A DNA stretch of 35,632 bases from an uncultured Granulosicoccus sp. (GTDB lineage: Bacteria > Pseudomonadota > Gammaproteobacteria > Granulosicoccales > Granulosicoccaceae). The position numbers and the translations under genes are program-made. The notes under the pieces were generated by a model that was given only the letters and a program-made list of their open reading frames with translations, did no database searches and was not told the origin of the DNA. The stretch covers positions 1-35,632 of the forward strand of contig CALKXZ010000479.1 of the NCBI GenBank assembly GCA_938003775.1. Direction: 5' to 3'. Of this stretch, positions 1,559-19,516 are shown in pieces; position 1 is the first letter of the stretch, and every line of letters begins with the position of its first letter.

Positions 1559-1693
1559 TTTCAGTGCAAGTGAGGCGGTTGCTCTAGGTCTGAACAGGCG
1601 CAAATATCAGTAATTGTTGCAGTCTAAGGCACAGGCAAGTCCGTCTGAAGTAACGCAGTAGTAGTCTGTTGGGTAGGTGATTTTTCAAGCGAA

Positions 1694-1768
<75 letters not shown>

Positions 1769-1787
1769 GTTTGGCAAATTAGCAAGC

Positions 1788-1863
<76 letters not shown>

Positions 1864-2030
1864 GTCTTTTGTAGGGCGGATGAGGCAGAAGAGGCAGATG
1901 AGTAAGTGTGCTGTAGTTAGTTGCAATAGCAGTATCGAATTCTAGTTTATAGCGCTAATGCCGCGGCGTCGCGTGGCACTGTAATCATAGTCGACGACAG
2001 AACTTATCAATCCGGTAGAGGCAGCGCCTG

Positions 2031-3221
2031 ATGTCTAAGGAAAAATTCGAACGAAACAAACCCCATGTCAACGTAGGCACAATAGGCCACGTAGATCATG
2101 GTAAGACGACGCTGACAGCGGCGTTAACGATCTGTCAGTCAGAGAAGATGGGCGGCGAGGCCAAAGCCTATGACCAGATTGATAACGCGCCGGAAGAGAA
2201 AGCGCGCGGTATCACGATAGCGACAGCGCACGTCGAATACGAGTCAGACAACCGCCACTACGCGCACGTTGACTGCCCCGGGCATGCCGATTACGTGAAA
2301 AACATGATCACTGGAGCGGCGCAGATGGACGGGGCCATTCTGGTGTGTTCAGCGGCCGACGGTCCAATGCCACAAACGCGGGAGCACATCCTGCTGGCGC
2401 GTCAGGTCGGGGTGCCGTACATCGTTGTGTACCTGAACAAGGCGGACATGGTGGACGATGCCGAGCTGCTGGAGCTGGTTGAAATGGAAGTGCGGGAGCT
2501 GCTGGACAGCTACGAGTTCCCTGGCGACGATACGCCGATTATCACAGGCTCAGCGCTCAAAGCCATCGAAGGGGATACCTCCGAGATTGGTCGTCCGTCA
2601 ATTGATCGTTTGATTGAGGCGCTGGATACGTACATTCCCATGCCAGAGCGTCCGGTGGACCAGCCGTTTTTGATGCCGGTGGAAGATGTGTTCTCGATCT
2701 CGGGTCGTGGCACCGTGGCCACAGGTCGTGTGGAGCGTGGGGTTGTCAAGGTCGGTGAGGAGATCGAGATAGTGGGTATCCGAGATACCACCAAGACGAC
2801 GGTGACCGGTGTAGAGATGTTCCGTAAGCTGCTGGATCAGGGCGAGGCGGGGGACAACGTGGGCATATTGTTGCGCGGTACCAAGCGCGATGATATCGAG
2901 CGAGGGCAGGTGCTGTGTAAGCCGTCATCGATCACGCCGCACACGAAGTTTGAGGCCGAGATTTATGTATTGGGTAAGGATGAAGGCGGGCGTCATACGC
3001 CATTTTTCAACAACTACCGGCCGCAGTTCTACTTTCGCACCACGGATGTGACGGGGGCGGTAGAGTTGCCGTCAGGCACCGAGATGGTGATGCCGGGAGA
3101 CAACGTGAAGATCACGGTGGCGCTGATCAACCCGATAGCCATGGAAGATGGTTTGCGTTTTGCGATTCGTGAAGGTGGCCGTACCGTGGGTGCGGGTGTT
3201 GTCGCGAAAATTATCGAGTAA
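2031..3221 (+). CDS. tuf: Translation elongation factor Tu
   Basis: 396 aa; [46 protein letters not shown] and the C-terminal [19 protein letters not shown] are diagnostic of EF-Tu. Confidence 0.99.
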
Positions 3222-3228
3222 TTAAGTT

Positions 3229-3543
3229 ATGGCAGCCAGTCAAACAATCCGAATTCGTCTCAAAGCATTCGATCACCGCCTGATCGATCGTTCTGCGAAA
3301 GAAATTCTTGAAACCGCCAAGCGTACCGGTGCTCGTGTTCTGGGTCCGATTCCCTTGCCTACCAAGAAAGAGCGTTTCACTATTCTGGTCTCTCCGCACG
3401 TCAACAAAGACGCGCGTGACCAGTACGAGATTCGTACGCACAAGCGATTGATGGATATCGTTGACCCAACAGAAAAGACGGTCGATGCACTGATGAAGCT
3501 GGATCTCGCAGCTGGTGTCGATGTACAGATCAAATTGAATTGA
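3229..3543 (+). CDS. rpsJ: 30S ribosomal protein S10
   Basis: 104 aa; [45 protein letters not shown] is typical S10; 7 bp after tuf. Confidence 0.99.
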
Positions 3544-3600
3544 TCAGTTTGTTACCGATGTAGAAACACCAGCAGCCATTGCTGCCGGTGGTTGTTTGAA

Positions 3601-3625
3601 AAGCCCGCCATGTGCGGGCTTTTTT
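3601..3625 (+). terminator. Intrinsic terminator downstream of rpsJ
   Basis: AAGCCCGC-CATGT-GCGGGCTT hairpin followed by a T tract, about 58 bp after the rpsJ stop. Confidence 0.9.
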
Positions 3626-3762: not shown

Positions 3763-4815
3763 ATGACGATGAATACCCGTGTATTTGATGGACACAATGA
3801 TGTACTCAGTCAATTGCGCGATGCCGGTGGGGTTGCTGCGGCTGAACGTTTTCTCTCTGTATCAGATTTTCATATCGATACGATCAAGGCTGCAAAAGGC
3901 AATTTTGGTGGCGGTTTCTTTGCACTGTGGGTAGCCAGCCCAGGCGATGGTGATTATCAAGCCTTGATGGTGCAGGAAAGTTACGATGTACCATTACCGG
4001 AACCGGTTGATTATCAAGATGCTCTCAAAGTGGTACTGGAGCAAACTGCCATATTGATAAGGCTACAGCAGTTAGGTGCTGTTGATATTTGCACGGGTAT
4101 CGAGCAACTGGAGAGGTGTCTGACAACCGACACGCTTGCAGCCATCCTACACTTGGAAGGCTGTGAGGCCATTGATCCAGATTTTCACACGCTAGATGTG
4201 CTTTATGCCGCAGGGTTACGCTCATTAGGTCCGGTGTGGAGCCGTTCAACGGTGTTTGGTGAGGGTGTGCCTTTTCGGTATCCGTCCTCCTCAGATACGG
4301 GTGGCGGTTTGACCGACCTGGGCATTGAATTGGTCAAACGTTGCAATGCAATGGGTATCATGATCGACCTATCGCACATCAATGCGGCGGGTTTTTATGA
4401 TGTGGCCAAGCACAGTCACTACCCTCTGGTTGCCACACATTCAAATGTACACGCCTTATGCCCGCATGCTCGAAATTTGACCGATGAGCAATTACAGATG
4501 ATCAAAGCCAGTGGTGGCATGGTCGGTCTTAATTTTGCCAGTGCTTTTCTGCGAGCCGACGGTCGAATGCTCCCTGATGTGCCGATTGATCAGATGCTAA
4601 GGCATCTGGACTATCTGCTGAAAGCTCTGGGTGAGAATGGTGTGGGGTTGGGGTCTGATTTTGATGGGGCAGTGGTGCCTGATGCATTGGGTGATGTATC
4701 CGGATTGCCGGTATTAATCAGCGCCATGCAAGCACACGGTTACGGACAGGCGTTGATAGAAAAGCTGTGTCACGGCAATTGGATTGATGTGCTGAAGCGA
4801 ACGTGGCACCGGTAG
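3763..4815 (+). CDS. Membrane dipeptidase, peptidase family M19 (renal dipeptidase-like)
   Basis: N-terminal FDGHNDVL, IDLSH, THSN and GLGSDFDGA metal/active-site motifs of M19 dipeptidases. Start could also be at 3769. Confidence 0.92.
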   Translation: MTMNTRVFDGHNDVLSQLRDAGGVAAAERFLSVSDFHIDTIKAAKGNFGGGFFALWVASPGDGDYQALMVQESYDVPLPEPVDYQDALKVVLEQTAILIRLQQLGAVDICTGIEQLERCLTTDTLAAILHLEGCEAIDPDFHTLDVLYAAGLRSLGPVWSRSTVFGEGVPFRYPSSSDTGGGLTDLGIELVKRCNAMGIMIDLSHINAAGFYDVAKHSHYPLVATHSNVHALCPHARNLTDEQLQMIKASGGMVGLNFASAFLRADGRMLPDVPIDQMLRHLDYLLKALGENGVGLGSDFDGAVVPDALGDVSGLPVLISAMQAHGYGQALIEKLCHGNWIDVLKRTWHR

Positions 4816-4844
4816 TTGTGCGCAAAAGCCCGTGTCTGTGCGAA

Positions 4845-5171
4845 TCAGATTTCCTCTGATATTTCCAGATCAAAAACAATCAGACTGTCTATACCATGCT
4901 GCAGCAATGCAACCAGCGCTTGTCCTGCTGCTTTGTGTTCAGGGTGGGCTAAGTATGCATCGCGCGCAGCGGCATCGCTGAAGTCGATGATAAAGCCATC
5001 ATTAAAACCCTTTGCCAGGGATTCTGGACTGACGTTTTCGCCAAAGTGGGAGTTGAGCATACCGGGCACAACAGATTGCAAGGATGCTAAGCGTTGATAG
5101 AGTTGATCTCTCTGCGTCTTGGTCACATCATCATGAAATTGCACGAATACGCAGTGTCGGATCATGGCCAA
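4845..5171 (-). CDS. Dabb (stress-responsive alpha/beta barrel) domain protein
   Basis: MIRHCVFVQFHDDVTKTQRDQL...SPESLAKGFNDGFIIDFSDAAARDAYLAHPEHKA matches the Dabb family pattern. Confidence 0.85.
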   Translation of the reverse strand: MAMIRHCVFVQFHDDVTKTQRDQLYQRLASLQSVVPGMLNSHFGENVSPESLAKGFNDGFIIDFSDAAARDAYLAHPEHKAAGQALVALLQHGIDSLIVFDLEISEEI

Positions 5172-5232
5172 TCCAGGTTAGGTGGTTTACGGTTTTACAG
5201 GCTGTAACATCGGTGATCCTTCAGCAATAAAG

Positions 5233-5250
5233 AGCGGGCCTAAGCCCGCT
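5233..5250 (-). terminator. Terminator hairpin downstream of the carbonic-anhydrase-like gene
   Basis: AGCGGGC-CTAA-GCCCGCT perfect 7 bp stem; on the minus strand followed by TCTTTATTG. Confidence 0.65.
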
Positions 5251-5284
5251 TCTTCATTTGTGCAGCTATTTTAATAGTGGGCTT

Positions 5285-6154
5285 TTAATTACCAATCTGG
5301 GATAAGAGATTCGGATTCATCACAAGATTACGAACACCATGGGCGTAGTTTTCGTCGAACACATTATTGCCCAGCCACGCACCCACCGTCTTGATGTTCA
5401 CCTTGGCAACGCTGGGACGAACGCTCCATGATACCTGTAGTGGTGAGCCTTTCTCGTTGTAGCTGGGTCCCGTGGTAGAGCCAGCGTACTGAATAGGCGT
5501 GCCTGTGTTGTTAGGAATATTCACAGCCTGCTGATACCCATTGACTTCACCCAGCTCGGTGAGCGTTGTGAAATCCAATGCGCTGTCGTCGTTCACCAGC
5601 ACGTATACCTGAGTTTCCACGCGTAGTTGTGGATTCGCAATAGATTCACTTAAGCAGGAGCCTAAGGTAGGGCCTGGCTTAACCTGTGCGGTTGAGTGAA
5701 CATAATGCACTTCTATCGTATCTCCCGGAGTCAGGGAGCCATGGTCGTTAGCGCCAACCTCTATGTCGATGGGCATCAGTTCTGCTTCAGTGAGCTCGCC
5801 GGAGTATTTAAAGCCAGTCTGGTGACCTTTGCCGTCGCCATTGCCAACGTACTCGGTGAATTCGCCGCCTTTGTGTTCAGCACTTTCATGAAAGTGGATA
5901 TTGCACAGGTTCATTTCTGTGTAAGCAGGTGCTTGTTCGAATGCACGGCTATTACTGCCAGCGACAGAATCAATATCTCGTGGTGATTGAGGCCCGAAAC
6001 CAGCACCTTCAGTGGTCTTTGCCAGCATCTTGCGCTGTTTTTCAATGCTTGCATCATCGACCTCTCCTGCAGCATTCAACACAGCGGCAGATGCACCGGT
6101 AAGTGCCAATATGGATGTTGCAACGGCCAATCTTTTTCTAAGATTTCTAGTCAT
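5285..6154 (-). CDS. Secreted delta-class carbonic anhydrase-like protein (putative)
   Basis: N-terminal signal-like hydrophobic segment; 'NLCNIHFHESAEHKGGEFTEYVGNGDGKGHQTGFKYSG' and 'VHYVHSTAQVKPGPTLGSCLSE' resemble the putative carbonic anhydrase family shared by diatom delta-CAs and bacterial homologues. Recognised from memory only. Confidence 0.68.
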   Translation of the reverse strand: MTRNLRKRLAVATSILALTGASAAVLNAAGEVDDASIEKQRKMLAKTTEGAGFGPQSPRDIDSVAGSNSRAFEQAPAYTEMNLCNIHFHESAEHKGGEFTEYVGNGDGKGHQTGFKYSGELTEAELMPIDIEVGANDHGSLTPGDTIEVHYVHSTAQVKPGPTLGSCLSESIANPQLRVETQVYVLVNDDSALDFTTLTELGEVNGYQQAVNIPNNTGTPIQYAGSTTGPSYNEKGSPLQVSWSVRPSVAKVNIKTVGAWLGNNVFDENYAHGVRNLVMNPNLLSQIGN

Positions 6155-6451
6155 TTTTGTCTATCTAAATTGTAAGATTTGTTCGATAAATGCCTTACCC
6201 GATAAAGCGGTACTACAAGGCAGCCCCCTACAGAATTACTGCAGCGGACAAACGATACTACGAGTTGCGTGTCAAATTGGCTTAAATTATCGTTTTGGAC
6301 AAATCTCCGGTTTCGTCGCTCATCAATTGCTGAAAAAAACGTGCAGCATAAGCGCGCAAATGGGATGCCGCAAAATGCAAAAAGGTCGCTCTAACTCATT
6401 CGCTGGTGAGAATGTAGCTAGGCGACCTTGAGTCTATCAGTGCAGCCCCAG

Positions 6452-6484
6452 GAGCCTGCGGGCTTAGGGCCGCTCCGCAGGCTC
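6452..6484 (-). terminator. Hairpin downstream of the reverse-strand ABC operon
   Basis: GAGCCTGCGG...CCGCAGGCTC perfect 10 bp inverted repeat, about 80 bp past the SBP stop; T tract weak. Confidence 0.5.
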
Positions 6485-6565
6485 GATCAAATAGGCCGGT
6501 CACTGCATATTGTCTAGCTCAGCGAACAGTTTCGCATCCTAGACTGCAAATGTGACGCCGATTAA

Positions 6566-7720
6566 TTAGCGCTCTAAGGCGCCAACACCGGAGAAGCGAA
6601 AAGCTTCTTTTTCCAACGCATCTAGCTCTTCGGGTGCCATTTGATCATGGGCAACGAGTATGCGGCCTAAAAACACCAAGGGTAATTCATCTTCGCGCCC
6701 TTCTAGATGGTACTTAATGGCCTCGGCTGCGGCGGCACCGACATCATCACCCATACGCATCGGTGTCGCGTCCAGTTCCTTACGACGAATGGCGTCCAGT
6801 TCCAGGCCTGTTCCGCCCCAACCCGTGGAGAAGATATCATCGGCTCGATCAGCCCCCAGCAGTGCCTCCATGGAGCCCATTGCCATTGCTGTGTTGGCGT
6901 TATGAATGACCGTGACCTCTGGGTAAGCCTGTAAAATGAGGTTGGTTCCGTCAAAGCCACCTTCTCGCGTGTAGTCACCATAGTGTTCATAGGCCAATGT
7001 CCAGTTGGCCTTTTCCTCTATGCATTTTTGAAAGTCACCCGATCGCTGGTTGTCAGTGATACCCGGAATACCGCGATTCATCGCGTAGACCACATCATTG
7101 CCGAGCCGTTCTGCCATGTAGTCACAGATATTTAAGGCGCCGAGCGTTGAAGAGAAGTCGAACCAGCCAGCTGGCTGCACATCAAATTGCTTTAAAGGCG
7201 TGAAGAAAGACCAGACAAATGTTTTGAAATCGTCGCTCTTGGATAAGCGGTCTATATTGTCGGCCTGAGTAGCAAGCTCGGATGGGCCAAACACAATAAA
7301 ATCATACAAGTCGCCATCCTGCAGTACCTGCTCGGTATAGGTACTTTGCAATGAGTGTTCTATCTGTCGTGAGGCAAATTCGGTTGTCTCATACGGGATA
7401 TTCAATTCATCCAGCCGTTTGGTGAAAGCCAGATAGGCACGTGCCCAGAAATCTGATACGTCGGCGGACGGATAGACCAACCCAATCTTGATAGGCTCTT
7501 TTTGTTCTACCGCCAGCGGTACTGCCGCTGAACCCACTACCTCTTGCAGCATTTCGACGCTGCCTGGTTTGTTCACCTCATCGGGTAACCAATAATCGCG
7601 ATCAGCGGCATCAGGGAGTTCCATTAATGGCAACTTATCTGCCGCGAACGAAGGCGAACTGCCCATGATCAACGCGAGTGCCATGCCTATGGCAACATGA
7701 TCAACTCTTTTCATATTCAA
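6566..7720 (-). CDS. Periplasmic substrate-binding protein of a sugar-type ABC transporter (TorT/LuxP-like fold)
   Basis: Signal peptide; periplasmic-binding pattern 'KIGLVYPSADVSDFWARAYLAFTKRLDELNIPYE...'; adjacent to sugar ABC permease and ATPase. Confidence 0.85.
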   Translation of the reverse strand: MNMKRVDHVAIGMALALIMGSSPSFAADKLPLMELPDAADRDYWLPDEVNKPGSVEMLQEVVGSAAVPLAVEQKEPIKIGLVYPSADVSDFWARAYLAFTKRLDELNIPYETTEFASRQIEHSLQSTYTEQVLQDGDLYDFIVFGPSELATQADNIDRLSKSDDFKTFVWSFFTPLKQFDVQPAGWFDFSSTLGALNICDYMAERLGNDVVYAMNRGIPGITDNQRSGDFQKCIEEKANWTLAYEHYGDYTREGGFDGTNLILQAYPEVTVIHNANTAMAMGSMEALLGADRADDIFSTGWGGTGLELDAIRRKELDATPMRMGDDVGAAAAEAIKYHLEGREDELPLVFLGRILVAHDQMAPEELDALEKEAFRFSGVGALER

Positions 7721-7786
7721 GTCTCCTGAAATCTTGCAACGTGAAAAAGCGGTTAACTGCCAGCCTGTATCAATGACAGAGTCGGT

Positions 7787-8911
7787 TTATCGAACCGCAG
7801 AAGTTTCGCCAGCGAATAGCCAGCCCAGAACACACAAGCCTAAAATGATGGTGGCAACAATGAGAGCAAACCTGGCAAGGTGCCTGTTCTCAGGCGTTTT
7901 TAGCGCGTGCATAAAACCACCTTGCCCATCGCGATCTTTCATCTGTAACCACGTATAAAAAGCCACTGATGAGATGATGACGACACCGGAGGCAACTGAC
8001 TGCCAGAAAAACTCAATACGTAAAGTGACCAGAGCGTTGATCATCATGGCCAGCAGCAACACCCCGGCCAGTGAGCCCACGATGGAGCCACGTCCACCGA
8101 ACAGCGATGTTCCTCCGACAACCACAGCAGCGATAACGTGTAAGTTGAAAAAAGGAGCCGAGGTGGCCTGTATGGCGTTGAGCTTGCCAGCGAGCATCAC
8201 ACCCGCCAAGCCAGCCATAGAACCCATCAGCACATACACGTAAACTTTATACCGGTTAACCGGTACACCGGTGAGTTCAGCTGCTTCGGGGTTGGAGCCG
8301 ATGGCAATGGCGTAGCGTCCTAGCTTGGTACGGGTGTAGATGACATAGCCAACTATGAGTGTTGTCAGACCAATGACCACGGGCACGGGTATAAAACCGG
8401 GAATGGCCCCGCGCCCGATAGCGACTATCTCCTCGGGGAAGCGAGAAAGCACCACGCCTTTGGCTAGCACCAGTGCGAATCCTCGATACACAAGATCCAT
8501 TGCCAACGTGCCGATCAAGTCTGGTACTCGTAACTTGGTGATAATCAATCCGTTGATTAATCCGCATAGGGCACCCAATGAGATAGCCAGTGTTACAGCG
8601 ACCCACCAGGGAAATCCATAGGACTTGACCATGTAGCCCATAATAATAGCGGTCAATGCTGCAACAGAGCCAATGGACAGATCGATACCACGCGTTGTGA
8701 TAACCAAGGTCATGGCCATAGCCATAGGCATATACAGTGCTGCATCCTTAAGGATAATGTCGAAGTTGGACACTCGAAAATAACGAGTAGGCTCCAGTAC
8801 CAGCATCATCAACAGCAACGCCGCTATCATCGCCATAGGACCTAATAGCGCCAGATAACGATCCAGTTTTTCACGACCAGTAAGACCAGCTTGTGTGTCA
8901 GGTTCACTCAT
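7787..8911 (-). CDS. Sugar ABC transporter permease (RbsC/FrcC-like, BPD_transp_2)
   Basis: Multiple TM segments; 'ITTRGIDLSIGSVAALTAIIMG', 'GSNPEAAELTGVPVNRYKV', 'VVVGGTSLFGGRGSIVGSLAGVLLLAMM' are family signatures. Start at MSEPDTQ preferred over the upstream ORF start at 8944. Confidence 0.94.
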   Translation of the reverse strand: MSEPDTQAGLTGREKLDRYLALLGPMAMIAALLLMMLVLEPTRYFRVSNFDIILKDAALYMPMAMAMTLVITTRGIDLSIGSVAALTAIIMGYMVKSYGFPWWVAVTLAISLGALCGLINGLIITKLRVPDLIGTLAMDLVYRGFALVLAKGVVLSRFPEEIVAIGRGAIPGFIPVPVVIGLTTLIVGYVIYTRTKLGRYAIAIGSNPEAAELTGVPVNRYKVYVYVLMGSMAGLAGVMLAGKLNAIQATSAPFFNLHVIAAVVVGGTSLFGGRGSIVGSLAGVLLLAMMINALVTLRIEFFWQSVASGVVIISSVAFYTWLQMKDRDGQGGFMHALKTPENRHLARFALIVATIILGLCVLGWLFAGETSAVR

Positions 8912-8915
8912 GAGC

Positions 8916-9707
8916 TCAGGCCGCCTGGTCCGAAGCTGCACCAACCATCATGCCTAGCACACTGGCAATATCGCTCTCGGTGGTCTTAACAACACCGGCA
9001 CGACGACCTCGACGCATAATCTGAATGCGATCAGAAATAGCGAAAACATCATCCAGGCTGTGCGAAATAACAATGACACCGAGTCCTTGATCTCGAACAG
9101 TTTCAATCAGTTTTAGCGTGCGACTGGTTTCACGAGGGCCCAGTGCAGCAGTGGGTTCGTCCATGACTAATACCTTCAGATCGCTGTGATAGACCGCTCT
9201 TGCTATCGCAATTGCCTGTCTTTGTCCCCCTGAGAGGCTGTCAGTGGGGACATCCATGCTGCGTAGCGTGACACCGAGCCGTTCGCGTAACGTTCGCTCA
9301 GCTTCTGATCGCATACGTTTGTTGTCCAGAATTTCTAGACCCAGTAATTTTTTGGTTAACTCACTGCCTAGAAACATATTCGCAGCAGGCGTTAAATGGT
9401 CTGCCAGTGCGAGGGTTTGGTACACCGCGTCAATACCGTGTTCGATGGCGTCGGAATGACTGTTCATCGTCAGTTCCTGCCCTTCAAGTAGCATGGAACC
9501 TGCAGTAGGGCGAAGTACACCGGTGAGGATTTTGATGAGCGTGGACTTGCCAGCGCCGTTGTCGCCCACAATGGCCAGCACTTCTCCGGCGTGTAAATCC
9601 AGGTCAACAGCTTCCAATGCTGTGACACCACCAAAGCGCTTGGTTATGCCACGCATTGCTACCAGCGGTGCTGAAGTTTCAGTCATTATGGTGCATCCTA
9701 AGTGCAA
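8916..9707 (-). CDS. Sugar ABC transporter ATP-binding protein (single-domain, FrcA-like)
   Basis: Walker A GDNGAGKSTLIKIL, signature LSGGQRQA, Walker B VLVMDEPTAAL; about 260 aa with one ABC domain. Confidence 0.94.
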   Translation of the reverse strand: MHLGCTIMTETSAPLVAMRGITKRFGGVTALEAVDLDLHAGEVLAIVGDNGAGKSTLIKILTGVLRPTAGSMLLEGQELTMNSHSDAIEHGIDAVYQTLALADHLTPAANMFLGSELTKKLLGLEILDNKRMRSEAERTLRERLGVTLRSMDVPTDSLSGGQRQAIAIARAVYHSDLKVLVMDEPTAALGPRETSRTLKLIETVRDQGLGVIVISHSLDDVFAISDRIQIMRRGRRAGVVKTTESDIASVLGMMVGAASDQAA

Positions 9708-9727
9708 CTGGTTTGTGGGACGTTATC

Positions 9728-9739
9728 GGTAACGTTACC
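9728..9739. promoter_or_regulatory. Candidate LacI-family-type operator upstream of the reverse-strand sugar ABC operon
   Basis: Perfect 12 bp palindrome GGTAACGTTACC, 21 bp upstream of the ATPase gene start. Confidence 0.5.
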
Positions 9740-9829
9740 AGTTTTTTTGTGGAAAATACACCTGTTCAGATAATTTCATCACTGATCAACAGTGAAGAGA
9801 CATCGAAACAATTTACCAACGGAGACACT

Positions 9830-10207
9830 ATGAAATACGTGCACATCATTGCAACGCTTGCTATTTTTCAGTTCATTGTATTCAGCGTGTTAGTAGGGCA
9901 GGCACGGCTCAAGTATGGCGTTAAGGCCCCTGCCATCAGTGGCAATGAACACTTCGAGCGTGTGTTTCGTGTCCAAATGAATACACTGGAGCAACTGGTT
10001 TGTTTTTTGCCAGCATTGTTTTTGGCCGCTGCCTATTGGTCACCGGTGTTCGCATCAGCTGTCGGTGTTGTGTACTTGGTCGGCCGAATGATTTATCGGC
10101 ACTCGTACATTGAAAATCCGACTGGTCGTGCCGTAGGATTTGTTATGAGTCTCGTACCCACGCTTGTGTTGTTGGTAGCGGGTTTAATAGGCGCGTTGAT
10201 CAATTAG
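9830..10207 (+). CDS. MAPEG family membrane protein
   Basis: 125 aa, four hydrophobic segments, 'FERVFRVQMNTLEQLVCFLPALFLAAAYWSP' and 'VVYLVGRMIYRHSYIENPTGRAVGF' are MAPEG signatures; ATG preceded by GGAG. Confidence 0.9.
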   Translation: MKYVHIIATLAIFQFIVFSVLVGQARLKYGVKAPAISGNEHFERVFRVQMNTLEQLVCFLPALFLAAAYWSPVFASAVGVVYLVGRMIYRHSYIENPTGRAVGFVMSLVPTLVLLVAGLIGALIN

Positions 10208-10238
10208 GTGTGAGCGTTGGCTGTTATAGGGGTTTTTC

Positions 10239-10273
10239 CTGGATCTCGCTTAGCGTGATTAAGCTCGATCCAG
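10239..10273. terminator. Bidirectional terminator between convergent MAPEG and bacterioferritin genes
   Basis: CTGGATCTCGCTTA...TAAGCTCGATCCAG (12/14 paired) flanked by TTTTTC on the left and AAAAA on the right. Confidence 0.8.
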
Positions 10274-10295
10274 AAAAACACCGTGCAACGGCTTA

Positions 10296-10781
10296 TTATT
10301 CTGCTGCGTCCGCACCGACGGCTTGCAACTGTTGATAGTTTTGTAAGCCAACACGTTCTAGCAGGTCTAATTGCGTTTCGAGAAAATCAATATGTCCCTC
10401 TTCATCTTTCAGTAATCCCTCAAAAATGTTCTTAGACACATAGTCACCTTCAGCTTCGCAAATCTCCTTGGACTTCGCGTAAGACTCTCGAGCTTCGATT
10501 TCTGCAGCCAGATCGCCTTCCAGAACTTCTTTCACGTTCTGACCAATGCGTAAACTCCCCAGGGTTTGTAAGTTTGGGTGACCTTCCAAAAAGATGATGC
10601 GTTCAATGAGCATGTCAGCATGCTGCATTTCTTCAATAGATTCCTCCCGCTCTTTTTTGGCCAATTTTGTCAGGCCCCAGTCGTCCAGTAATCGGTAATG
10701 CAGCCAGTACTGGTTCACTGATGCAAGCTCTAAAAATAATGCTTCGTTCAAACGTTCGATGACCTTGTCACTACCTTTCAT
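10296..10781 (-). CDS. bfr: Bacterioferritin
   Basis: [72 protein letters not shown] matches bacterioferritin ferroxidase-centre motifs. Confidence 0.97.
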
Positions 10782-10975
10782 TGTATGTTCTCTCGGTTTT
10801 TCCAATCGTTATGAATGACATAGTGGCTGATAGGAAAACCCCTGACAACCTCAGGGGAATATATACAGCTGTAACGAGTTTAAATGACGGTCTCGGTGTA
10901 TTGTCCCTTTATGAGTGCAGATGGTGTGTGCGGTAACCTGTTGCCACTATTTTCAAGAGTGGCTAATTTTGCAGA

Positions 10976-11242
10976 TTACAGCGCCTGCTCAATACTGAGT
11001 AGTTCGTTGGTTTGAGATTGATTTGCTTGTGCCGCCAGATCCTTTTTTTTGATAAAAGTGAGTGCAGATTCACTAATCACCCTCTCTGCCAGCGGAAAAC
11101 AGTTGCAGCATTTTGGCTGTTTCCCAAGTTCTGCATAAACATTCTTTGGGCAAAGATCAGGTCTTGCGCATTTGGACATCATGCAATTAACAGCTTTGTC
11201 TATATCGCAAGATGAAATGCAATTGCAATGGCAAATGATCAT
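10976..11242 (-). CDS. Bacterioferritin-associated ferredoxin-like [2Fe-2S] protein
   Basis: MIICHCNCISSCDI...KCARPDLCPKNVYAELGKQPKCCNCFPLAERVI: N-terminal CxC and BFD-domain cysteine arrangement; next to bfr. Confidence 0.82.
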   Translation of the reverse strand: MIICHCNCISSCDIDKAVNCMMSKCARPDLCPKNVYAELGKQPKCCNCFPLAERVISESALTFIKKKDLAAQANQSQTNELLSIEQAL

Positions 11243-12015
11243 GAGAGCATCACTACCTATACACGTTGATTGTGTGCTGCCGTGGGTACACAGGATATGA
11301 AAATACGACTAAATTCGCAAACAGTGTTCATTTATAGGGTGTATTCGTTGCCATCAGGAACAGCTGTGTTGATACAGTGGGATTTTGGGATAAAGCAACG
11401 CTCATATTAGGTCAGTTGTTAAACGTCGGCTAAAAGTGGGTTGAGAATTCCTCGGGGTCAGAACACCAATGTGTCGCGGTAAAAAGTCACCTAGTCATCA
11501 CTTTTGTCAGCATTCTTGCGGGGTCCAATAATAGTGGGGCCAATAATGCGCCAATTAGTTTCTTTTGGATTGAAAATGCCTGATTTCGTACAAGGGCATT
11601 TCGGGATAGCATTGACCGCTGTACAAAGACTATCACGGTAAATCCACAGTTATAGCAAGGTTTTGTCGCTGTATTGAGCCTTGATAACGGCCATAACCTG
11701 GCAAAGGCGTCCTGTATTGGTTGCAAATTGCCGTTTGGAATACGCCAGAAGAGATGATCCATCCACACAGTCGTGTGTCAATGATCTGCCTCCGCATTAC
11801 AAGGGTTAACAGTTAACTCGGGCCAAGGCAGGATCGGGCTGACAGACTATCTGCGCGAGTCAATCTGTAACCGAATCACGATTCATATGGGTCATGCGTG
11901 CCACCTAGGGCGTATTGACAAGCATTAGTGAAATAGCCAGTATCACTTGACATTGAGCATGGCCCTGTATGCCTTGGCGAGCTCTGTATTTATTTTCTAC
12001 AGTCCCGCTCCAATG

Positions 12016-12053
12016 GTTGTCGCGACTTAATTGCCACCACGCGTTGTCGCGAC
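12016..12053. promoter_or_regulatory. Paired candidate operators upstream of the forward sugar ABC operon
   Basis: GTTGTCGCGAC occurs at about 12016-12026 and 12043-12053; the second copy extends to the palindrome TGTCGCGACA. About 80 bp upstream of the SBP start. Confidence 0.45.
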
Positions 12054-12132
12054 ATTTGGCTGCCAGGAACAACATGGTCGATGGTTTGATTGACCAGAAG
12101 TCGCTCTGGTCAAAACCTTAGGAGGATTGTCG

Positions 12133-13122
12133 ATGAAAAAATGGTTGTCAACACTCGCTGGTGTCGCACTTGCCACCACTTTAGTACACACTGCCACTGC
12201 GCAAGATAAACCCAGCATGGGTGTGGTTGTAAAAATTGGCGGCATTCCCTGGTTTAATGCCATGGAAACCGGTATCCAGGAAAAAGGCGAGGAGCTGGGG
12301 CTGGACGCGTTTATGGTCGGACCGGTATCCGCAGATCCAGCGTTACAGGTACGTGCCATTGAAGATTTGATTGCCCGTAACGTCGATATTATTGGCGTGG
12401 TACCCAATGACGAAACAGCTTTGGAACCGGTGCTTGAAAAAGCGCGCGCTGCGGGCATTAAAGTCGTCTCCCACGAAGGCCCGGGACTACAGAATGTTGA
12501 CTGGAATTTCGAATTGGCTTCGGCCACGGGTTTTGGTGAAGCGCATGCAGAATTACTGGCACAGAAGATGGGCGGCAAGGGTGAGTACGCCGTTTTTGTC
12601 GGTTCACTGACCGTACCCCTGCACAATGCTTGGGCTGATGCCGCCAATGAGTACATGGCCGCTAACTACCCGGACATCAAAAAAGTAGGTGAACGTTACG
12701 GTGTTGCAGAAAATGTTGACGACAGCCGCAAGACAGCGCTGGACTTAATAGCAGCCAACCCGGATTTGGGAGGATTTCTAGCGTTTGGTAGTCAGGGTCC
12801 CATTGGTGCGGGGCGCGCGATTGAAGAACGCCGACTGGGCGGCAAGGTGCATGTACTGGGACCCTTCTCACCGGGGCAAGGTCAGAAGCTTGTTAAGACG
12901 GGCATTATCTCTGGCGGCTACATGTGGAATCCGGCGGAAGCAGGCCGTGTATTTGTCACCATGGGGAAGATGTTATTAGATGGCGACGAGATTGCCGATG
13001 GCACTGACATACCGGGCCTTGGTGTTGTGAGTCCCGATGCCGCTACGCGCAACATCATCACAGACAATCTGCTGGAAATAAATGATTCCACGGTCGATGG
13101 GTTGGCTGATCTGGGTTTGTAG
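12133..13122 (+). CDS. Sugar ABC transporter substrate-binding protein (RbsB-like)
   Basis: Signal peptide MKKWLSTLAGVALATTLVHTATAQ; 'GVVVKIGGIPWFNAMETGIQEKGEELGLDAFMVGP...DPALQVRAIEDLIARNVDIIGVVPND' typical of PBP type I sugar-binding proteins; GGAGG RBS. Confidence 0.95.
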   Translation: MKKWLSTLAGVALATTLVHTATAQDKPSMGVVVKIGGIPWFNAMETGIQEKGEELGLDAFMVGPVSADPALQVRAIEDLIARNVDIIGVVPNDETALEPVLEKARAAGIKVVSHEGPGLQNVDWNFELASATGFGEAHAELLAQKMGGKGEYAVFVGSLTVPLHNAWADAANEYMAANYPDIKKVGERYGVAENVDDSRKTALDLIAANPDLGGFLAFGSQGPIGAGRAIEERRLGGKVHVLGPFSPGQGQKLVKTGIISGGYMWNPAEAGRVFVTMGKMLLDGDEIADGTDIPGLGVVSPDAATRNIITDNLLEINDSTVDGLADLGL

Positions 13123-13157
13123 TTCGTCAGATCAATCAATGGTTGTTCTTTCAACTA

Positions 13158-13188
13158 GGCCACACTCGCTACCTTGGTGAGTGTGGCC
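13158..13188 (+). terminator. Strong intercistronic hairpin between SBP and ATPase genes
   Basis: GGCCACACTC-(11 nt)-GAGTGTGGCC perfect 10 bp stem followed by GTTTCTCTC. Confidence 0.65.
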
Positions 13189-13268
13189 GTTTCTCTCTAC
13201 ACCGTGATAATCGATACTGAAACGAATATATTGGTGTGCGTTGTCAACCCCAACACTAGGTACATGAT

Positions 13269-14795
13269 GTGCCAATGCCGATGGTAATGTCGGCACACAG
13301 TGGATCAACTACGTCTGCATTGAGACTGAAAAACGTATCCAAGCGATTTGGGGGCGTACAGGCGCTGGATGCATTGGATTTTGATGTCTCGCAAGGTGAA
13401 GTGCATTGTCTTGCTGGCGAAAACGGGTGTGGGAAAAGCACGTTGATCAAAATTGTGACGGGTGTGTACGAGCCCGATGCTGGTGCTGAGATGGAGTATT
13501 TCGGCGAACCGGTAACACACATTACACCGACTCAGGCACGAAGGCGTGGCATTGCTGTGATCTGGCAGGATCTTGCTCTGTTCCCTGAGATGAGTGTTGC
13601 GGAAAATATCGCCTTTGATTCTTTGGTGGGTAGTAGATTGCGCCGTGTTGATCATTCAGCATTGGCGCAAACAGCGGGAGATGTGCTCGATAAGCTTGAT
13701 TTGCAGCTGGACCTAACTGCGCCGCTGAACTCTCTGCCCATCGCCAAACGGCAGATGGTTGCTATCGCAAGAGCGTTGGTTGGTGAGGCGCGGATGATCT
13801 TCATGGATGAGCCGACGGCTTCACTGACACAAGCTGAAACAGATAGCTTACTCACGATTGTCAGAACGCTCTCTGCACAAGGTGTCGCGATTGTTTTCGT
13901 CAGTCATCGTTTGGCAGAAGTACTGGACATTGCCAGGCGCGTCACGGTGATTAAAGACGGACAATTGGTCGGGGTATACCCAGCTCAGGGTATGACGCAA
14001 TCTCGCCTGACTACACTGATGACTGGGCAGTCACTAAAGCATCAGGTCAGGTCACGTGATTTGAGCAATGCGCCCGTTGTGCTGAATGTGCAAGGTTTAA
14101 CTCGAGAGGCTGAGTTCACAGATGTATCGCTGCAAATTCGTGCTGGCGAGGTGCTCGGTCTAACAGGCCTTATTGGTGCGGGTCGAACCGAATTAGCTCA
14201 TGTCTTGTTTGGTATGCGTCAACCATCCCAAGGAGTGATTGAGTTAAACGGCAAGCCGGTTACGTTTTCATCAAATCGAGACGCGATGCAAGCGGGTGTT
14301 GCTTATGTGTCTGAGGATAGGTTGTCGCTTGGGCTTATCCAACCTCAATCCATCGCAGCGAACATTGTGTTGCCCATATTGTCACGACTGACACATCGCA
14401 GCGGTCTGTTGTCTCGACAGCTTACGGCAGAAACAGTGAAGCACTGGATCAACGAATTGACAATTAAGGTGGGTGATTCTGATGATGCGGTGTCAACGCT
14501 ATCCGGTGGTAATCAGCAGCGCGTGGTGCTATCTAAGTGGCTCAGTACAGAGCCACGATTATTAATTCTTGACAGTCCTACTGTGGGTGTTGACGTTGGT
14601 GCTCGTGCTGGTGTGTTTGACATCGTGCAGCGATTGGCTGATCAAGGGCTAGCGATACTGCTTATTTCAGATGAAGTGTCGGAGGTGTATTTCAATGCTG
14701 ATCGCATTTTGCATATGGGGAATGGCCAGATAATTCAAGCGTATTCTCCAGCTGATACAACCATAGATGCGTTAGAGAGTTGCATCTATGCGTAA
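13269..14795 (+). CDS. Sugar ABC transporter ATP-binding protein with two ABC domains (RbsA-like)
   Basis: Walker A GENGCGKSTLIKIV; second domain GLIGAGRTELAHVLFGM, LSGGNQQRVVLSKWL, LILDSPTVGVDVGA. Exact start uncertain. Confidence 0.95.
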   Translation: MPMPMVMSAHSGSTTSALRLKNVSKRFGGVQALDALDFDVSQGEVHCLAGENGCGKSTLIKIVTGVYEPDAGAEMEYFGEPVTHITPTQARRRGIAVIWQDLALFPEMSVAENIAFDSLVGSRLRRVDHSALAQTAGDVLDKLDLQLDLTAPLNSLPIAKRQMVAIARALVGEARMIFMDEPTASLTQAETDSLLTIVRTLSAQGVAIVFVSHRLAEVLDIARRVTVIKDGQLVGVYPAQGMTQSRLTTLMTGQSLKHQVRSRDLSNAPVVLNVQGLTREAEFTDVSLQIRAGEVLGLTGLIGAGRTELAHVLFGMRQPSQGVIELNGKPVTFSSNRDAMQAGVAYVSEDRLSLGLIQPQSIAANIVLPILSRLTHRSGLLSRQLTAETVKHWINELTIKVGDSDDAVSTLSGGNQQRVVLSKWLSTEPRLLILDSPTVGVDVGARAGVFDIVQRLADQGLAILLISDEVSEVYFNADRILHMGNGQIIQAYSPADTTIDALESCIYA

Positions 14796-15783
14796 ATACT
14801 TTACTACGCATCCATCAGAAAGCTGGCTATTGGTGGTTCTGCTGTTGATGATTGTGGGTTTGTCACTGGCAACAGATCAATTTCTGACACTCGGTAACAT
14901 CAGCTCACTGCTTAACAATAACTCGGTGAACCTGATATGGGCAGTTGGTTTGCTGGTGGTGCTGATAGCTGGCGGTATAGACATTTCCTTTGCTGTGGCC
15001 GCGTCAGTGGTTCAATACGTCGCTGTATTTGTACTTGAACTATTCGGCGGTGGAAACTGGGCCGTCGGATTTATTGTCGCTGGCCTGTTGGGTATTGCGC
15101 TGGGATGTATTAATGCAGCCTTAGTGCATCAATTCCGAATCATAACCATTGTCGTCACTATTGCTACGTTTAATGCCTATTTTGGCTTATTGATGTATTT
15201 CAGCAAAGGTAAGTTTATCTATAACTTGCCGGAGTGGTGGAGTGCTCGTGTGGTGTTGTTAGAACATCAAGGTGCGGATGGGCGATGGGCAGAGTTGAAT
15301 CTGCCGGTACTGGTAATGTTGTTGTGTGTGCTGGCCACCTGGGTACTGATTCGGTATACAACCACGGGTCGTCAATTGTATGCCTTTGGTGATAACCCAG
15401 AGGGTGCTGCGCGGGCGGGGATTAATGTCGCTGCCATGCAGTTTGTCGCGTTTGGTTGGATGGGATTGATGGCAGGCATTGGTGGGCTAATGCAGGTCAA
15501 CATCACTCAGGAAGTCGTACCCAATGCGTTGATCGGTCGCGAACTGGATGTCCTGGCGGCTGTGGTGCTCGGAGGCGCTAGACTCGGCGGTGGGCGAGGT
15601 ACCGTGCTGGGATGCGTGCTTGGTGTCTCATTGGTCGTCATTACGCAAAACGGACTCAACTTACTGGGTGTGTCTCCGTTTGCATTTAAAATGATTATCG
15701 GTGCCATTATCTTGATTGCCATTTCAACATCGCGTTTATCGTTCGGCCCTAGGTTGACCGGTACGCCTGTTATGCGCCAATGA
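14788..15783 (+). CDS. Sugar ABC transporter permease 1
   Basis: Hydrophobic; 'LLVVLIAGGIDISFAVAASVVQYVAV', 'GDNPEGAARAGINVAAMQFVAFGWMGLMAGIGG', 'LAAVVLGGARLGGGRGTVLGCVLGV'. Confidence 0.94.
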   Translation: MRKYFTTHPSESWLLVVLLLMIVGLSLATDQFLTLGNISSLLNNNSVNLIWAVGLLVVLIAGGIDISFAVAASVVQYVAVFVLELFGGGNWAVGFIVAGLLGIALGCINAALVHQFRIITIVVTIATFNAYFGLLMYFSKGKFIYNLPEWWSARVVLLEHQGADGRWAELNLPVLVMLLCVLATWVLIRYTTTGRQLYAFGDNPEGAARAGINVAAMQFVAFGWMGLMAGIGGLMQVNITQEVVPNALIGRELDVLAAVVLGGARLGGGRGTVLGCVLGVSLVVITQNGLNLLGVSPFAFKMIIGAIILIAISTSRLSFGPRLTGTPVMRQ

Positions 15784-16775
15784 ACACAATGCTGTTGCGC
15801 TTACGTCGCTTGTTTGGCCCAGAACTACCCGCCTTGCTCGTATTTCTACTGCTGGTCGTTGTTGGCTTTGGATTCATAGCGCCGCGGTTTATGACCATGG
15901 CAAATTTTGAATCGATCGCCTTTCAGCTCCCGGTGTTAGGCCTACTCACATTGGCCATGTTAGCGCCGATCCTATCCGGCGGGTTAAACCTTGCGATTGT
16001 GTATACCGCCAACTTATCGGGCTTGACGCTGGCGTGGGTACTCATACAATTTGGTGGGCCCGATGCAGGATATGTGGCGTTTGCGGTTGGCGTAATAGCC
16101 GCAATTGCGGTGGGCGCATTGGCCGGGGCGGCGATGGGGTTCGTGATTGCTTATGTGGGTGCTCACCCCATTTTGGTGTCATTAGCCATGATGATTTTTT
16201 TACGAGGGCTGGGCGAATTCTTAACGCGAGGTGGGGATATTTCCGGCTTTCCTGATTACCTGCGTGTTTTGGGGCACGGTGTCGTTATGGGTATACCGGT
16301 GCCTTTAATCCTTTTTTTGATCGTTGCGTTCGCTTGGCATGTCATTTTGTCCCGTACCCGTCATGGTTTCGCCATCTATATGATCGGTTCCAACATTCGT
16401 GCCGCGGAGTATTCAGGTGTACACACAAAAAGAACGCTGACACTGATCTACACCTTGTCAGGTGTTCTGTGCGCCGTGGCAGGTATCCTAATGCTGACCC
16501 GATTCAACTCTGTGCGTGTGGGTCATGGTGAAGCGTTATTGCTGATCACTGTGCTGGCGTGTTTTCTTGGTGGCGTAGACCCATTTGGTGGATTTGGTCG
16601 AGTCCTGTCGGTGGTCATTGCATTGATCATCTTGCAGGTGTTGTCGTCTGGTTTGAATCTAATGGGCGCTAATCAACATCTGTCAACGGCTGTGTGGGGT
16701 CTGTTTTTGATAGCAGTGATGGTGCTAAGACATGTTGCCGGCAGATTACCTATGTTGAATAAACCGAAGGAGTAA
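15780..16775 (+). CDS. Sugar ABC transporter permease 2
   Basis: Hydrophobic; 'LAPILSGGLNLAIVYTANLSGLTLAWVLIQ', 'GSNIRAAEYSGVHTKRTLTLIYTLSGVLCAVAGILML', 'LGGVDPFGGFGRVLSVVIAL'; 4 bp ATGA overlap with permease 1. Confidence 0.94.
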   Translation: MNTMLLRLRRLFGPELPALLVFLLLVVVGFGFIAPRFMTMANFESIAFQLPVLGLLTLAMLAPILSGGLNLAIVYTANLSGLTLAWVLIQFGGPDAGYVAFAVGVIAAIAVGALAGAAMGFVIAYVGAHPILVSLAMMIFLRGLGEFLTRGGDISGFPDYLRVLGHGVVMGIPVPLILFLIVAFAWHVILSRTRHGFAIYMIGSNIRAAEYSGVHTKRTLTLIYTLSGVLCAVAGILMLTRFNSVRVGHGEALLLITVLACFLGGVDPFGGFGRVLSVVIALIILQVLSSGLNLMGANQHLSTAVWGLFLIAVMVLRHVAGRLPMLNKPKE

Positions 16776-16778
16776 CCT

Positions 16779-17624
16779 ATGCAAGGCTTTGGCGTACACA
16801 CCAGTATGTGGACAATGAGTTGGGATCGGCAAGGTGCTGAGCGCGCTATTGCCGCAGCAGAGCACTACAAGATGGATTTCATTGAGATTCCCATGCTGGA
16901 TGCAGCTTCGGTGGATGCTGCCCATACGCGAGCACTGTTGGACAAGTCAGGGTTACGGGCCGTGTGCTCATTAGGCTTGCCAGAGGCGGTGTGGGCATCC
17001 AAGAATCCCGAAGGTGCCATTGCGCACTTAAAACAAGCGATGGATAAAACAGCTGAGCTTGGTGGGGAGGCCTTGTCCGGCGTCACCTTCGGTGGTATAG
17101 GTGAGCGTACCGGCGGTTACCCGACTGAAAAAGAGTACGACAATGTAGCGCGCGCATTGGATGCCGCCGCCAAGTACGCTAAACAGAAAGGCCTGCTGTT
17201 TGGAATAGAGCCTGTTAATCGCTATGAAAATCATTTGATTAATACCGGTTGGCAGGCGGTGAACATGATTGAACGCGTAGGCTCCGACAACATCTTTATT
17301 CATCTGGATACCTATCATATGAATATTGAGGAGAAAGGAGCTGGCAACGGCATACTCGATGCGCGCGATTATCTCAGGTACATTCACTTATCAGAAAGTG
17401 ACCGAGGTACTCCAGGCTCAGGAACCTGCGACTGGGACGAAATTTTTTCCACGCTGGCGGCTATTGAGTTTAAAGGCGGCTTGGCTATGGAGAGCTTTAT
17501 AAACATGCCACCTGAGATAGCCTTCGGCTTGTCGGTGTGGCGTCCAGTGGCTAAGAATTTTGAAGAAGTGATGGACAATGGCTTGCCGTTTTTGCGTAAT
17601 AAAGCTTCACAGTATCGTCTATAG
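16779..17624 (+). CDS. Sugar phosphate isomerase/epimerase-family TIM barrel; ketose (tagatose/psicose) 3-epimerase-like
   Basis: 'FIEIPMLD', 'LLFGIEPVNRYENHLINT', 'IFIHLDTYHMNIEE', 'HLSESDRGTPGSG', 'GGLAMESF' resemble D-tagatose/D-psicose 3-epimerase metal and substrate motifs; directly downstream of the sugar permeases. Confidence 0.85.
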   Translation: MQGFGVHTSMWTMSWDRQGAERAIAAAEHYKMDFIEIPMLDAASVDAAHTRALLDKSGLRAVCSLGLPEAVWASKNPEGAIAHLKQAMDKTAELGGEALSGVTFGGIGERTGGYPTEKEYDNVARALDAAAKYAKQKGLLFGIEPVNRYENHLINTGWQAVNMIERVGSDNIFIHLDTYHMNIEEKGAGNGILDARDYLRYIHLSESDRGTPGSGTCDWDEIFSTLAAIEFKGGLAMESFINMPPEIAFGLSVWRPVAKNFEEVMDNGLPFLRNKASQYRL

Positions 17625-17661
17625 ACGTGTGTGTTTGTTGACGCGTATTGGCAGGTAATCA

Positions 17662-18258
17662 TTAACGAAATTCGTTGCGCAGCGTATCAATCGCCTGTCT
17701 GCGAGAACACCCGTGCACATGATCATTGACGATACCCAATGCCTGCATTAACGCATACATATTCACTGGGCCAACAAATGACCAGCCTCGTTTTTTTAAT
17801 GCCTTTGCCAGTGCAACTGACTCGGCTGTTTGGCCATTCTGGGCAATCCAGTCGTGCGTGATTCGAGCAGGGCGTGTTCGAGGCTTTGGCTCAAATTGCC
17901 AGAAAAAAGCGGCCAGTGATTCCCCCTCCTGCTGAAATTCGAGGGCGCGTTGGGCGTTGTTTACAGCGGACAGGATTTTCCGACGATTGCGAATAATGCC
18001 CGGGTTGGCCATTAATCGTTCGACATCGGCGTTGGTGTACTTCGACACTTTCATCGGATCGAAACCTTGAAAAGCCTGCCGAAACGCCTCGCGACGATGC
18101 AAGATGATTTGCCAACTCAGGCCTGACTGAAACCCCTCAAGGCAGACTTTCTCAAAAAATACTTGATCGCTGTTAGTCGGAACGCCCCACTCATGATCGT
18201 GGTAATGCTGAAATACCGGGTCATTGGGGGGTATGGTGCAGTCGGTAGGTTTTGGCAT
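17662..18258 (-). CDS. tag: DNA-3-methyladenine glycosylase I
   Basis: 'YHDHEWGVP', 'KVCLEGFQSGLSWQIILHRREAFRQAFQGFDP', 'KALKKRGWSFVGPVNMYALMQALGIVNDHVHGCSR' closely match Tag, including the Zn ligands. ORF extends to 18315; start uncertain. Confidence 0.95.
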   Translation of the reverse strand: MPKPTDCTIPPNDPVFQHYHDHEWGVPTNSDQVFFEKVCLEGFQSGLSWQIILHRREAFRQAFQGFDPMKVSKYTNADVERLMANPGIIRNRRKILSAVNNAQRALEFQQEGESLAAFFWQFEPKPRTRPARITHDWIAQNGQTAESVALAKALKKRGWSFVGPVNMYALMQALGIVNDHVHGCSRRQAIDTLRNEFR

Positions 18259-18567
18259 TTTTTCAACGGGTGTGTCGGCTGGTCTATGGCGCGATTGTCT
18301 CAGCACTTTATGCAAGCTTGCCGTGAATCTGGCCGATTGCTGCGCTGTCGTACGCTGTGTAGGTGCCGCGTAACCGGACCCAAGTGGTGAAATACCCTAA
18401 CTAGAGCGCTGCAGATTTGTTTACAAGATTGCAATGCTCCCTGTGACGATCTAATGACATAGTTTTATGCCAAACAATCACAAGATATGCGATTAACGCA
18501 TTGATTTTAGAAAAAACCCTGAATTCACCTGATTTATGGTGCTTGTAAGGTGTTTAAAAAGCATTCA

Positions 18568-18771
18568 CCCGAGAGAATCCAGCAACGGTCGCGGGAAAAA
18601 CGGGCATAAAAATTCTCCGGGTTGTAGCAGTTCGTATTTTAAGCTGCTACTATGGCGAGCTAGCTTACCTGGCGTGATCACTCCGGCAGGTTTTTTTGTT
18701 TTTACAGGTTTGAATCACTTCGTTCCGGGCTGCACGGCTCGGCTGCATTGATAACCCCGAAAAACGAGCCG
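18568..18771 (+). promoter_or_regulatory. Structured leader upstream of rplC (candidate S10-operon L4-type attenuator/leader)
   Basis: Successive potential stems: CCCGAGAGAAT/ATTCTCCGGG (18568-18621), GTAGCAG/CTGCTAC (18624-18650), ACCTG/CAGGT followed by TTTTTTTGTTTTT (18667-18703), CGGCTCG/CGAGCCG (18735-18771). Confidence 0.5.
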
Positions 18772-18862
18772 CCTGCCAGCGGGTCGAGTAAATATGGGGG
18801 TTGGCGAGCGGTCCCACTGTGCGTGTAGCGTTGGTGCGTGTTAGCGTGTGTGGGAGAAAACG

Positions 18863-19516
18863 ATGACCCTTGGTGTAGTTGGCCGCAAGCTCGGCATGAC
18901 TCGCGTATTTGATGACGCAGGTGTGTCTACTCCTGTCACTGTCATTGAAGTGGCGAAGAACCGCATCACAGCCCGCAAGAACCTCGAACGCGACGGTTAC
19001 GTCAGTGTACAGGTTACGACCGGTGATAAAAAAACCAGCCAACTCAGCAAGGCCGAGGCAGGTCATTTCGCCAAAGCAGGTGTGGGAGCCGGGCGAGGCT
19101 TGTGGGAATTCCGTTTGGACGGCGAAGAGGGCAGTGAGCTGGAAGTGGGTGGTGAGTTCGGCATGGAGATGTTCGAAGCTGGTCAAAAAGTGGATGTCAC
19201 GGGTACCAGCATTGGTAAAGGGTTTGCAGGTGGTGTCAAGCGTCATAATTTCCAAATGCAAGACGCCACGCACGGTAACTCTCTATCTCACCGGGCGCCG
19301 GGTTCAATCGGCCAAAACCAAACACCAGGCCGTGTCTTCAAAGGCAAGAAAATGGCGGGTCATATGGGTGCGGTTCGGTGCACTACGCAAAACCTGCAGG
19401 TCGTTCGAATTGACGAAGGCCGCGAAGTCATTCTTATAAAAGGGGCAGTGCCCGGTGCAGATGGCAGTGATGTCATTATCAAGCCGGCTGTCAAGCAGAA
19501 GAAAGCGAAGAGCTAA
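18863..19516 (+). CDS. rplC: 50S ribosomal protein L3
   Basis: [20 protein letters not shown]...[16 protein letters not shown]...[27 protein letters not shown]. Confidence 0.99.

Follow-up and report, generated by a model that had tools for sequence, protein, structure and literature searches.

In Escherichia coli, the S10 leader is subject both to attenuation by L4 and NusA and to translational repression by L4. According to studies cited in two publications, a required hairpin in this leader lies upstream of the terminator hairpin (PMC10578931, PMC10931766), and a 2024 review states that even in Pseudomonas the L4 site has not been conserved (PMC10931766). Terminator-type hairpins and clade-specific structures also characterize rpsL leaders and the r-protein premature terminators described by Naville and Gautheret (2010; PMC2965389), whose main text mentions neither rplC nor rpsJ; a literature search on the rpsJ-rplC region returned nothing. 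The leader that we analyzed, located upstream of rplC in an uncultured Granulosicoccus, a marine bacterium, shares both properties with the Naville and Gautheret cases and differs from them in the operon that it precedes. It resembles the E. coli S10 leader in that a terminator-type hairpin is present in the 5' leader of a unit encoding L3, L4, L23, L2 and others, and in that the E. coli -10/discriminator sequence, TATAATGCGCGGGCTTG, is similar to the one in Granulosicoccus; it differs in that it precedes rplC and not rpsJ, in that the hairpin is at the extreme 5' end, and in that it gives no match to a model of the E. coli, Vibrio and Aeromonas leaders. Judged from its sequence, the rplC leader looks like an r-protein control element, and not like the known L4-dependent element of E. 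coli.

The window (the entire 35,632-nucleotide stretch of DNA that was analyzed) is contig C479 of a 4.58-Mb genome of 481 contigs, and its genus includes a genome (G023) that consists of a single 7.78-Mb contig. The best named match to the L3 protein encoded in the window is from the uncultured Granulosicoccus MAG CALKLO010000036.1 (88% identity). In this genome rplC is present in a single copy, and rpsJ is located 15.3 kb upstream of it (Table 1). The original prediction, that a relocated, L4-type S10 leader precedes rplC, correctly noted that rpsJ follows tuf tightly, with no leader in between.

The comparison set consisted of the DNA upstream of rplC at 40 Granulosicoccaceae loci. In all 40, TGnTAnnnT precedes a GC-rich discriminator, usually nGCGGGCTAnC, and a -35 sequence, either GTAGCA or GTGACA, is conserved at a spacing of 18 bp. 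A weight matrix built from the 39 other loci scores 34.8 bits at positions 18620-18665 of the window, against 10.1 bits for the runner-up when both strands of the 35.6 kb are considered. This conservation argues that the rplC promoter is real, with transcription predicted to start at about position 18662, and if so, stem 1 (18568-18621) is not present in the rplC RNA. The 487 bp before rplC had been taken as the leader; this length was wrong, and the leader in the transcript measures ~200 nt. Of the five stems proposed, two fall outside the RNA, as stem 1 lies upstream of the promoter (and has no counterpart in relatives) and the arms of stem 2 are the -35 (GTAGCA) and extended -10 (TGCTAC) sequences of the family-wide promoter. 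A simple promoter/terminator scan picked up neither this promoter nor the hairpin that follows it, because the -35 is non-consensus and the stem of the hairpin is interrupted.

That hairpin, H1, corresponds to stem 3 and its T tract, and it is the first element of the predicted RNA throughout the genus, beginning about 3-8 nt from the inferred start. Among 15 well-aligning sequences, standard pairs make up 90.4% in the 9-pair stem, the covariation score is 0.51, compensatory (two-sided) changes occur at eight of the nine pairs, and none of 500 shuffles reaches the observed values; when the partners were shifted by 1-3 columns as a control, pairing was 33-45%. The ACCTG/CAGGT arms of the window are replaced in relatives by AACCCGGCG/CGTCGGGTT, AACTCGGCG/CGCTGAGTT or GGCCGATG/CATTGGCC, and the 5' 46-mers of the genus have a mean folding z of -2.7. 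The 12 nt located 3' of the stem contain a mean of 7.75 T in relatives, compared with about a quarter T in the remaining leader, and in the window seven T directly follow the stem. By this covariation, H1 is a genuine, evolutionarily maintained hairpin, and together with the T tract it bears out the earlier expectation of a structured, terminator-like leader ahead of rplC. A hairpin directly followed by a U-rich tract is the arrangement of an attenuator, and a conserved RNA that extends from promoter to start codon and contains a covarying helix is that of a structured r-protein leader; the rplC leader shows both. We also considered H1 as the terminator of the upstream gene and rejected this possibility, since H1 sits downstream of the rplC promoter and the neighboring gene, tag, is oppositely oriented.

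Table 1. Positions of genes, signals and proposed stems in the window
Feature	Position	Strand	Sequence or description
rpsJ (S10)	3229..3543	+	ORF; 7 bp downstream of tuf, without its own leader
Terminator-like hairpin after rpsJ	3600..3625	+	AAAGCCCGCCATGTGCGGGCTTTTTT; intrinsic-terminator-like, from sequence
Stem 1, arms	18568-18578 / 18612-18621		CCCGAGAGAAT / ATTCTCCGGG
Stem 2, arms	18624-18630 / 18644-18650		GTAGCAG / CTGCTAC
rplC promoter	18624..18653	+	-35 GTAGCA 18624-18629; 18-bp spacer; TG 18645-18646; -10 TACTAT 18648-18653
Discriminator and start	18654..18662	+	GGCGAGCT; conserved nGCGGGCTAnC; inferred start ~A18662
H1 with T tract	18667..18703	+	ACCTG...CAGGT 18667-18691; T tract TTTTTTTGTTTTT 18691-18703; covariation; attenuator-like
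Stem 3, arms	18667-18671 / 18687-18691		ACCTG / CAGGT, then TTTTTTTGTTTTT
H2	18725..18742	+	CCGGGC-TGCACG-GCTCGG; kept, as aligned, in 7 of 8 of subclade; one-sided changes only
Stem 4, arms	18735-18741 / 18765-18771		CGGCTCG / CGAGCCG
H3	18812..18855	+	UCCCAC 18812-18817 / GUGGGA 18850-18855; spans Shine-Dalgarno GGGAG
Stem 5, arms	18813-18817 / 18850-18854		CCCAC / GTGGG
rplC (L3)	18863..19516	+	ORF; heads separate rplC-rplD-rplW-rplB-... unit

All ten arms of the originally proposed stems are present where they had been placed, and as features of a single sequence they do not rise above chance. The minimum free energy of positions 18550-18870 has a z of -0.5 relative to dinucleotide shuffles (27 of 100 shuffles fold equally well), and two exact 7-mer inverted repeats were observed where 0.58 were expected, a number matched in 40 of 300 shuffles. 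Since the interval alone is not unusually structured, the case rests on comparison with relatives, and Rfam 15, searched at gathering and at relaxed thresholds, identified no relevant family in the window. Among relatives, covariation strongly supports stem 3 and does not support stem 1, stem 2, CGGCTCG/CGAGCCG or CCCAC/GTGGG. The CGGCTCG/CGAGCCG pairing is broken in relatives, and most of a subclade of eight loci (L001-L005, L007, L008 and L011) maintains CCGGGC/GCTCGG (H2) instead. The pairing near the ribosome-binding site, extended to UCCCAC/GUGGGA (H3), is invariant in all eight members of this subclade, and to that extent the proposal held; it shows no covariation and is absent from the sister group (L006, L009 and L010). 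From 11 leaders, RNAalifold predicted long-range pairing with the rplC coding region, which we do not believe. A conserved leader peptide was also rejected, as the short ORFs vary among relatives and a shared "GGWxxVPLCV" frame arises from a nucleotide-invariant block and has no conserved start. In L007, the locus from the single-contig genome, the rplC frame is open far into the leader (a 286-aa open frame), and automatic annotation could therefore place the rplC start too early.

We consider it probable, though well short of certain, that the rplC leader is an attenuator-like control element. A growth-type sigma-70 promoter, marked by its extended -10 and GC-rich discriminator, would start the RNA at ~18662, and the first ~40 nt of the transcript would fold into the selected hairpin, followed by a U-rich tract. 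H1 most likely causes some RNA polymerases to pause or terminate immediately after initiation, such that readthrough at H1 would set the amount of the rplC operon that is made. In the subclade of eight, pairing of the leader over the ribosome-binding site (H3) may act as a second, translational brake. The most plausible input is feedback by an r-protein of the operon, with L4 only one candidate, and rpsJ, transcribed with tuf and ending at its own terminator, would be outside the control exerted by the rplC leader. Almost no room for an antiterminator exists upstream of H1, and regulation would therefore need a protein or other factor. We count this absence of antiterminator room against an attenuator, along with the G-G mismatch in H1 of the window (only five closing pairs precede it), the patchiness of the U tract, the restriction of H3 to one subclade, and the fact that no r-protein binding site or rRNA-like motif was recognized in the leader by 23S alignment or by the two covariance models described below.

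The 5' stem of the ompA mRNA is an example of a stem that guards a message from 5'-dependent decay. H1 could similarly be a 5'-terminal stabilizer of the long, essential rplC mRNA, with the U tract incidental, a reading that we regard as rather unlikely. H1 begins only ~5 nt into the inferred transcript at all 15 aligned loci, and in members of the genus whose leaders are very different (L016-L019, L021, L023 and L024) the 5' hairpin is retained while the U tract is often weak or missing. Close relatives, however, have kept the T-rich tail beside the stem, and in the window it is near-canonical, which argues for the attenuator-like element over a stabilizer.

Of the known systems, the one proposed originally was an E. 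coli-type leader that had moved to rplC, in which binding of L4 would stimulate NusA-dependent termination. A terminator-like hairpin does head the unit encoding L4, and an apparent L4 site (a mimic of 23S helices 18-20) is present right before rplC in Pseudomonadales-type bacteria, yet we judge such a leader unlikely in Granulosicoccus. A covariance model (R2) trained on S10 leaders from E. coli, Vibrio, Photobacterium and Aeromonas, which scores held-out true leaders at 125-134 bits and distant leaders at 22-34 bits, found nothing up to E = 10, the region of hairpins D and E included, in the window or in the other Granulosicoccaceae loci searched. A second model (R1), for the helix 18-20 (L4-site) mimic and trained only on Pseudomonadales-type rpsJ-rplC gaps, gave no match at the Granulosicoccaceae loci with default filters; with filters off it gave none upstream of rplC and four weak matches elsewhere (7.0-12.7 bits), of which three are on the minus strand and the fourth, L026:1971-2020, is downstream of rplC. 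Plain alignment of the leader with 23S rRNA produced scattered alignments and no similarity, including to nt 294-343. H1 is also at the very 5' end, whereas the E. coli leader needs a hairpin upstream of its terminator hairpin. L4 is thus not supported by sequence comparison as the regulator here, and neither comparison with the known gammaproteobacterial leaders nor the model of the mimic bears out a relocated L4-type leader.

We think it highly improbable that a dimeric transcription factor uses the GTAGCAG-N13-CTGCTAC dyad (stem 2) as an operator overlapping the promoter: six or seven of the seven positions are complementary in 8 of 10 close relatives compared, but the arms are the -35 and extended -10 sequences themselves, and where the second arm has A at its free position (L009, L010, L016, L020 and L021) the first arm does not change with it, a failure to covary that also indicates that stem 2 does not behave as an RNA helix.

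By the available tests, the idea of an L4 site ahead of rplC seems to apply to another lineage and not to this one. In Pseudomonadales-type gammaproteobacteria, including Spongiibacter, Saccharophagus, Microbulbifer, Marinobacterium, Amphritea, Oceanospirillum, SAR92, Pseudohongiella and others (L081, L084, L085, L089, L091, L095, L109, L118, L120, L126, L129, L132, L134, L142, L143, L147, L149, L151, L155 and L157), the rpsJ-rplC gap (~100-190 bp) contains GUGUAACGCUCUGAAAUGGGCGGCCAUAGCGGGUAAAAGCCCCGUACAC or close variants. Within the whole E. coli 23S rRNA, 19 of 19 gaps have their best alignment in a stretch that takes in most of nt 294-343 and ends at nt ~341-347, and R1, trained on the gaps, finds the same place in 23S (41.4 bits, E 2e-9). 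A DNA search of the E. coli collection with a 63-base mimic query returned nothing, and we replaced it with the comparison to one 23S gene and the covariance model. A class-wide sample contained three R1 matches of at least 67 bits, each 4 nt from rplC; in the other nine genomes checked (48-64 bits) the matches lie at other sites, probably within 23S genes. No Rfam 15 family covers the mimic loci. Stelzl and colleagues reportedly identified nt 295-343 of 23S domain I as an L4-binding fragment, and we take the mimicked region (23S nt ~294-343, helices 18-20) to be this L4 site. The ~50-nt conserved rRNA mimic directly before rplC is thus a candidate for an unlisted L4 leader. Like the Granulosicoccus element, it lies immediately upstream of rplC and precedes the same operon; it differs in being rRNA-like, in occupying a gap with no promoter, and in being undetected by R1 upstream of rplC in Granulosicoccaceae. 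For S10-operon control outside enterobacteria and Vibrio, two groups now have testable elements: ahead of rplC, Granulosicoccus-like bacteria carry a promoter with a covarying 5' hairpin, and Pseudomonadales-type bacteria carry the mimic of 23S helices 18-20.

In the Granulosicoccus lineage, S10 is no longer part of the transcription unit that normally bears its name. The rpsJ-rplC distance is 0.4-22.6 kb within the genus and about 0.17-0.7 kb elsewhere in the family, and the genes inserted in the gap (positions 3763-18315 of the window) vary among members of the genus. Of the shared inserts checked, the smallest consists of a dipeptidase gene and tag (G005 and G015); beyond these two, the gap in the window contains about 13 kb more, with ABC transporter, bfr/bfd-like and other genes, and in the genus other genes amount to as much as ~22 kb, between or beside the dipeptidase gene and tag. 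A terminator-like hairpin is present 3' of rpsJ at 23 of 24 genus loci. Between rpsJ and the rplC leader, no terminator-like site was found in g2 and g3 loci, and in g4 loci the sole terminator-like match is the rplC leader hairpin itself. The terminator of rpsJ and the promoter of rplC agree with the prediction that S10 lies outside the rplC transcription unit, and these signals mark the rplC operon as a transcription unit of its own. The same prediction held that the regulatory element stayed with rplC-rplD when rpsJ was separated. The rplC promoter is also present, however, in family members that keep rpsJ and rplC adjacent, indicating that it is older than the separation. Presumably the promoter was in place before the two genes parted and allowed their separation to be tolerated.

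The left part of the window (tRNA-Tyr/Gly/Thr-tuf-rpsJ, with the tRNAs and tuf at 1474-3221) is unlike the complete genome G023, in which rpsL-rpsG-fusA-tuf precede rpsJ. G023 and G018 each have two tuf genes, and contig C473, from the same genome as the window, ends 24 codons inside a second tuf. The sequence left of ~3200 may therefore be a chimeric assembly join through two near-identical tuf copies, and such a join leaves the rplC leader untouched.

In the rpsJ-rplC gap of other gammaproteobacteria, MAGs among them, a promoter-like site likewise has a strong hairpin within ~10-15 nt downstream, namely in Thioalkalivibrio (L079 and L082), Halothiobacillus (L101) and loci L080 and L148 (hairpin z -3.2 to -7.0). 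Recurrence of this order outside the genus suggests a function that extends beyond Granulosicoccus. We tentatively propose, as a possibility that falls short of an even chance, that Granulosicoccaceae, Thioalkalivibrio, Halothiobacillus and others share an undescribed element, common to many gammaproteobacteria that lack an E. coli-type L4 leader, in which a 5'-terminal attenuator hairpin, lying within ~10-15 nt after an internal S10-operon promoter, would sense an r-protein and leave S10 outside the loop. The same order was observed at L098 and L153, with a hairpin at L153 that is not significant.

Other leaders in the family depart from that of the window. Four of the genus loci (L016, L021, L023 and L024) have long leaders (~270-315 nt) with AAACCGG...CCGGTTTTT...AAAACCGG, in which a CCGGTTTT segment could pair with either flank and may constitute a terminator/antiterminator switch. 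In the sister genus, with leaders of 70-100 nt, a different hairpin is located immediately before the Shine-Dalgarno sequence upstream of rplC (98.8% paired; covariation reached in 0 of 500 shuffles). This hairpin, GGTTGCA/TGCGACC followed by GTTTTATATTGGAG (L061-L063, L066-L072 and L030), is terminator-like, with a T tract that runs into the Shine-Dalgarno sequence, and the promoter spacer of the sister genus contains a GGA-N9-TCC dyad.
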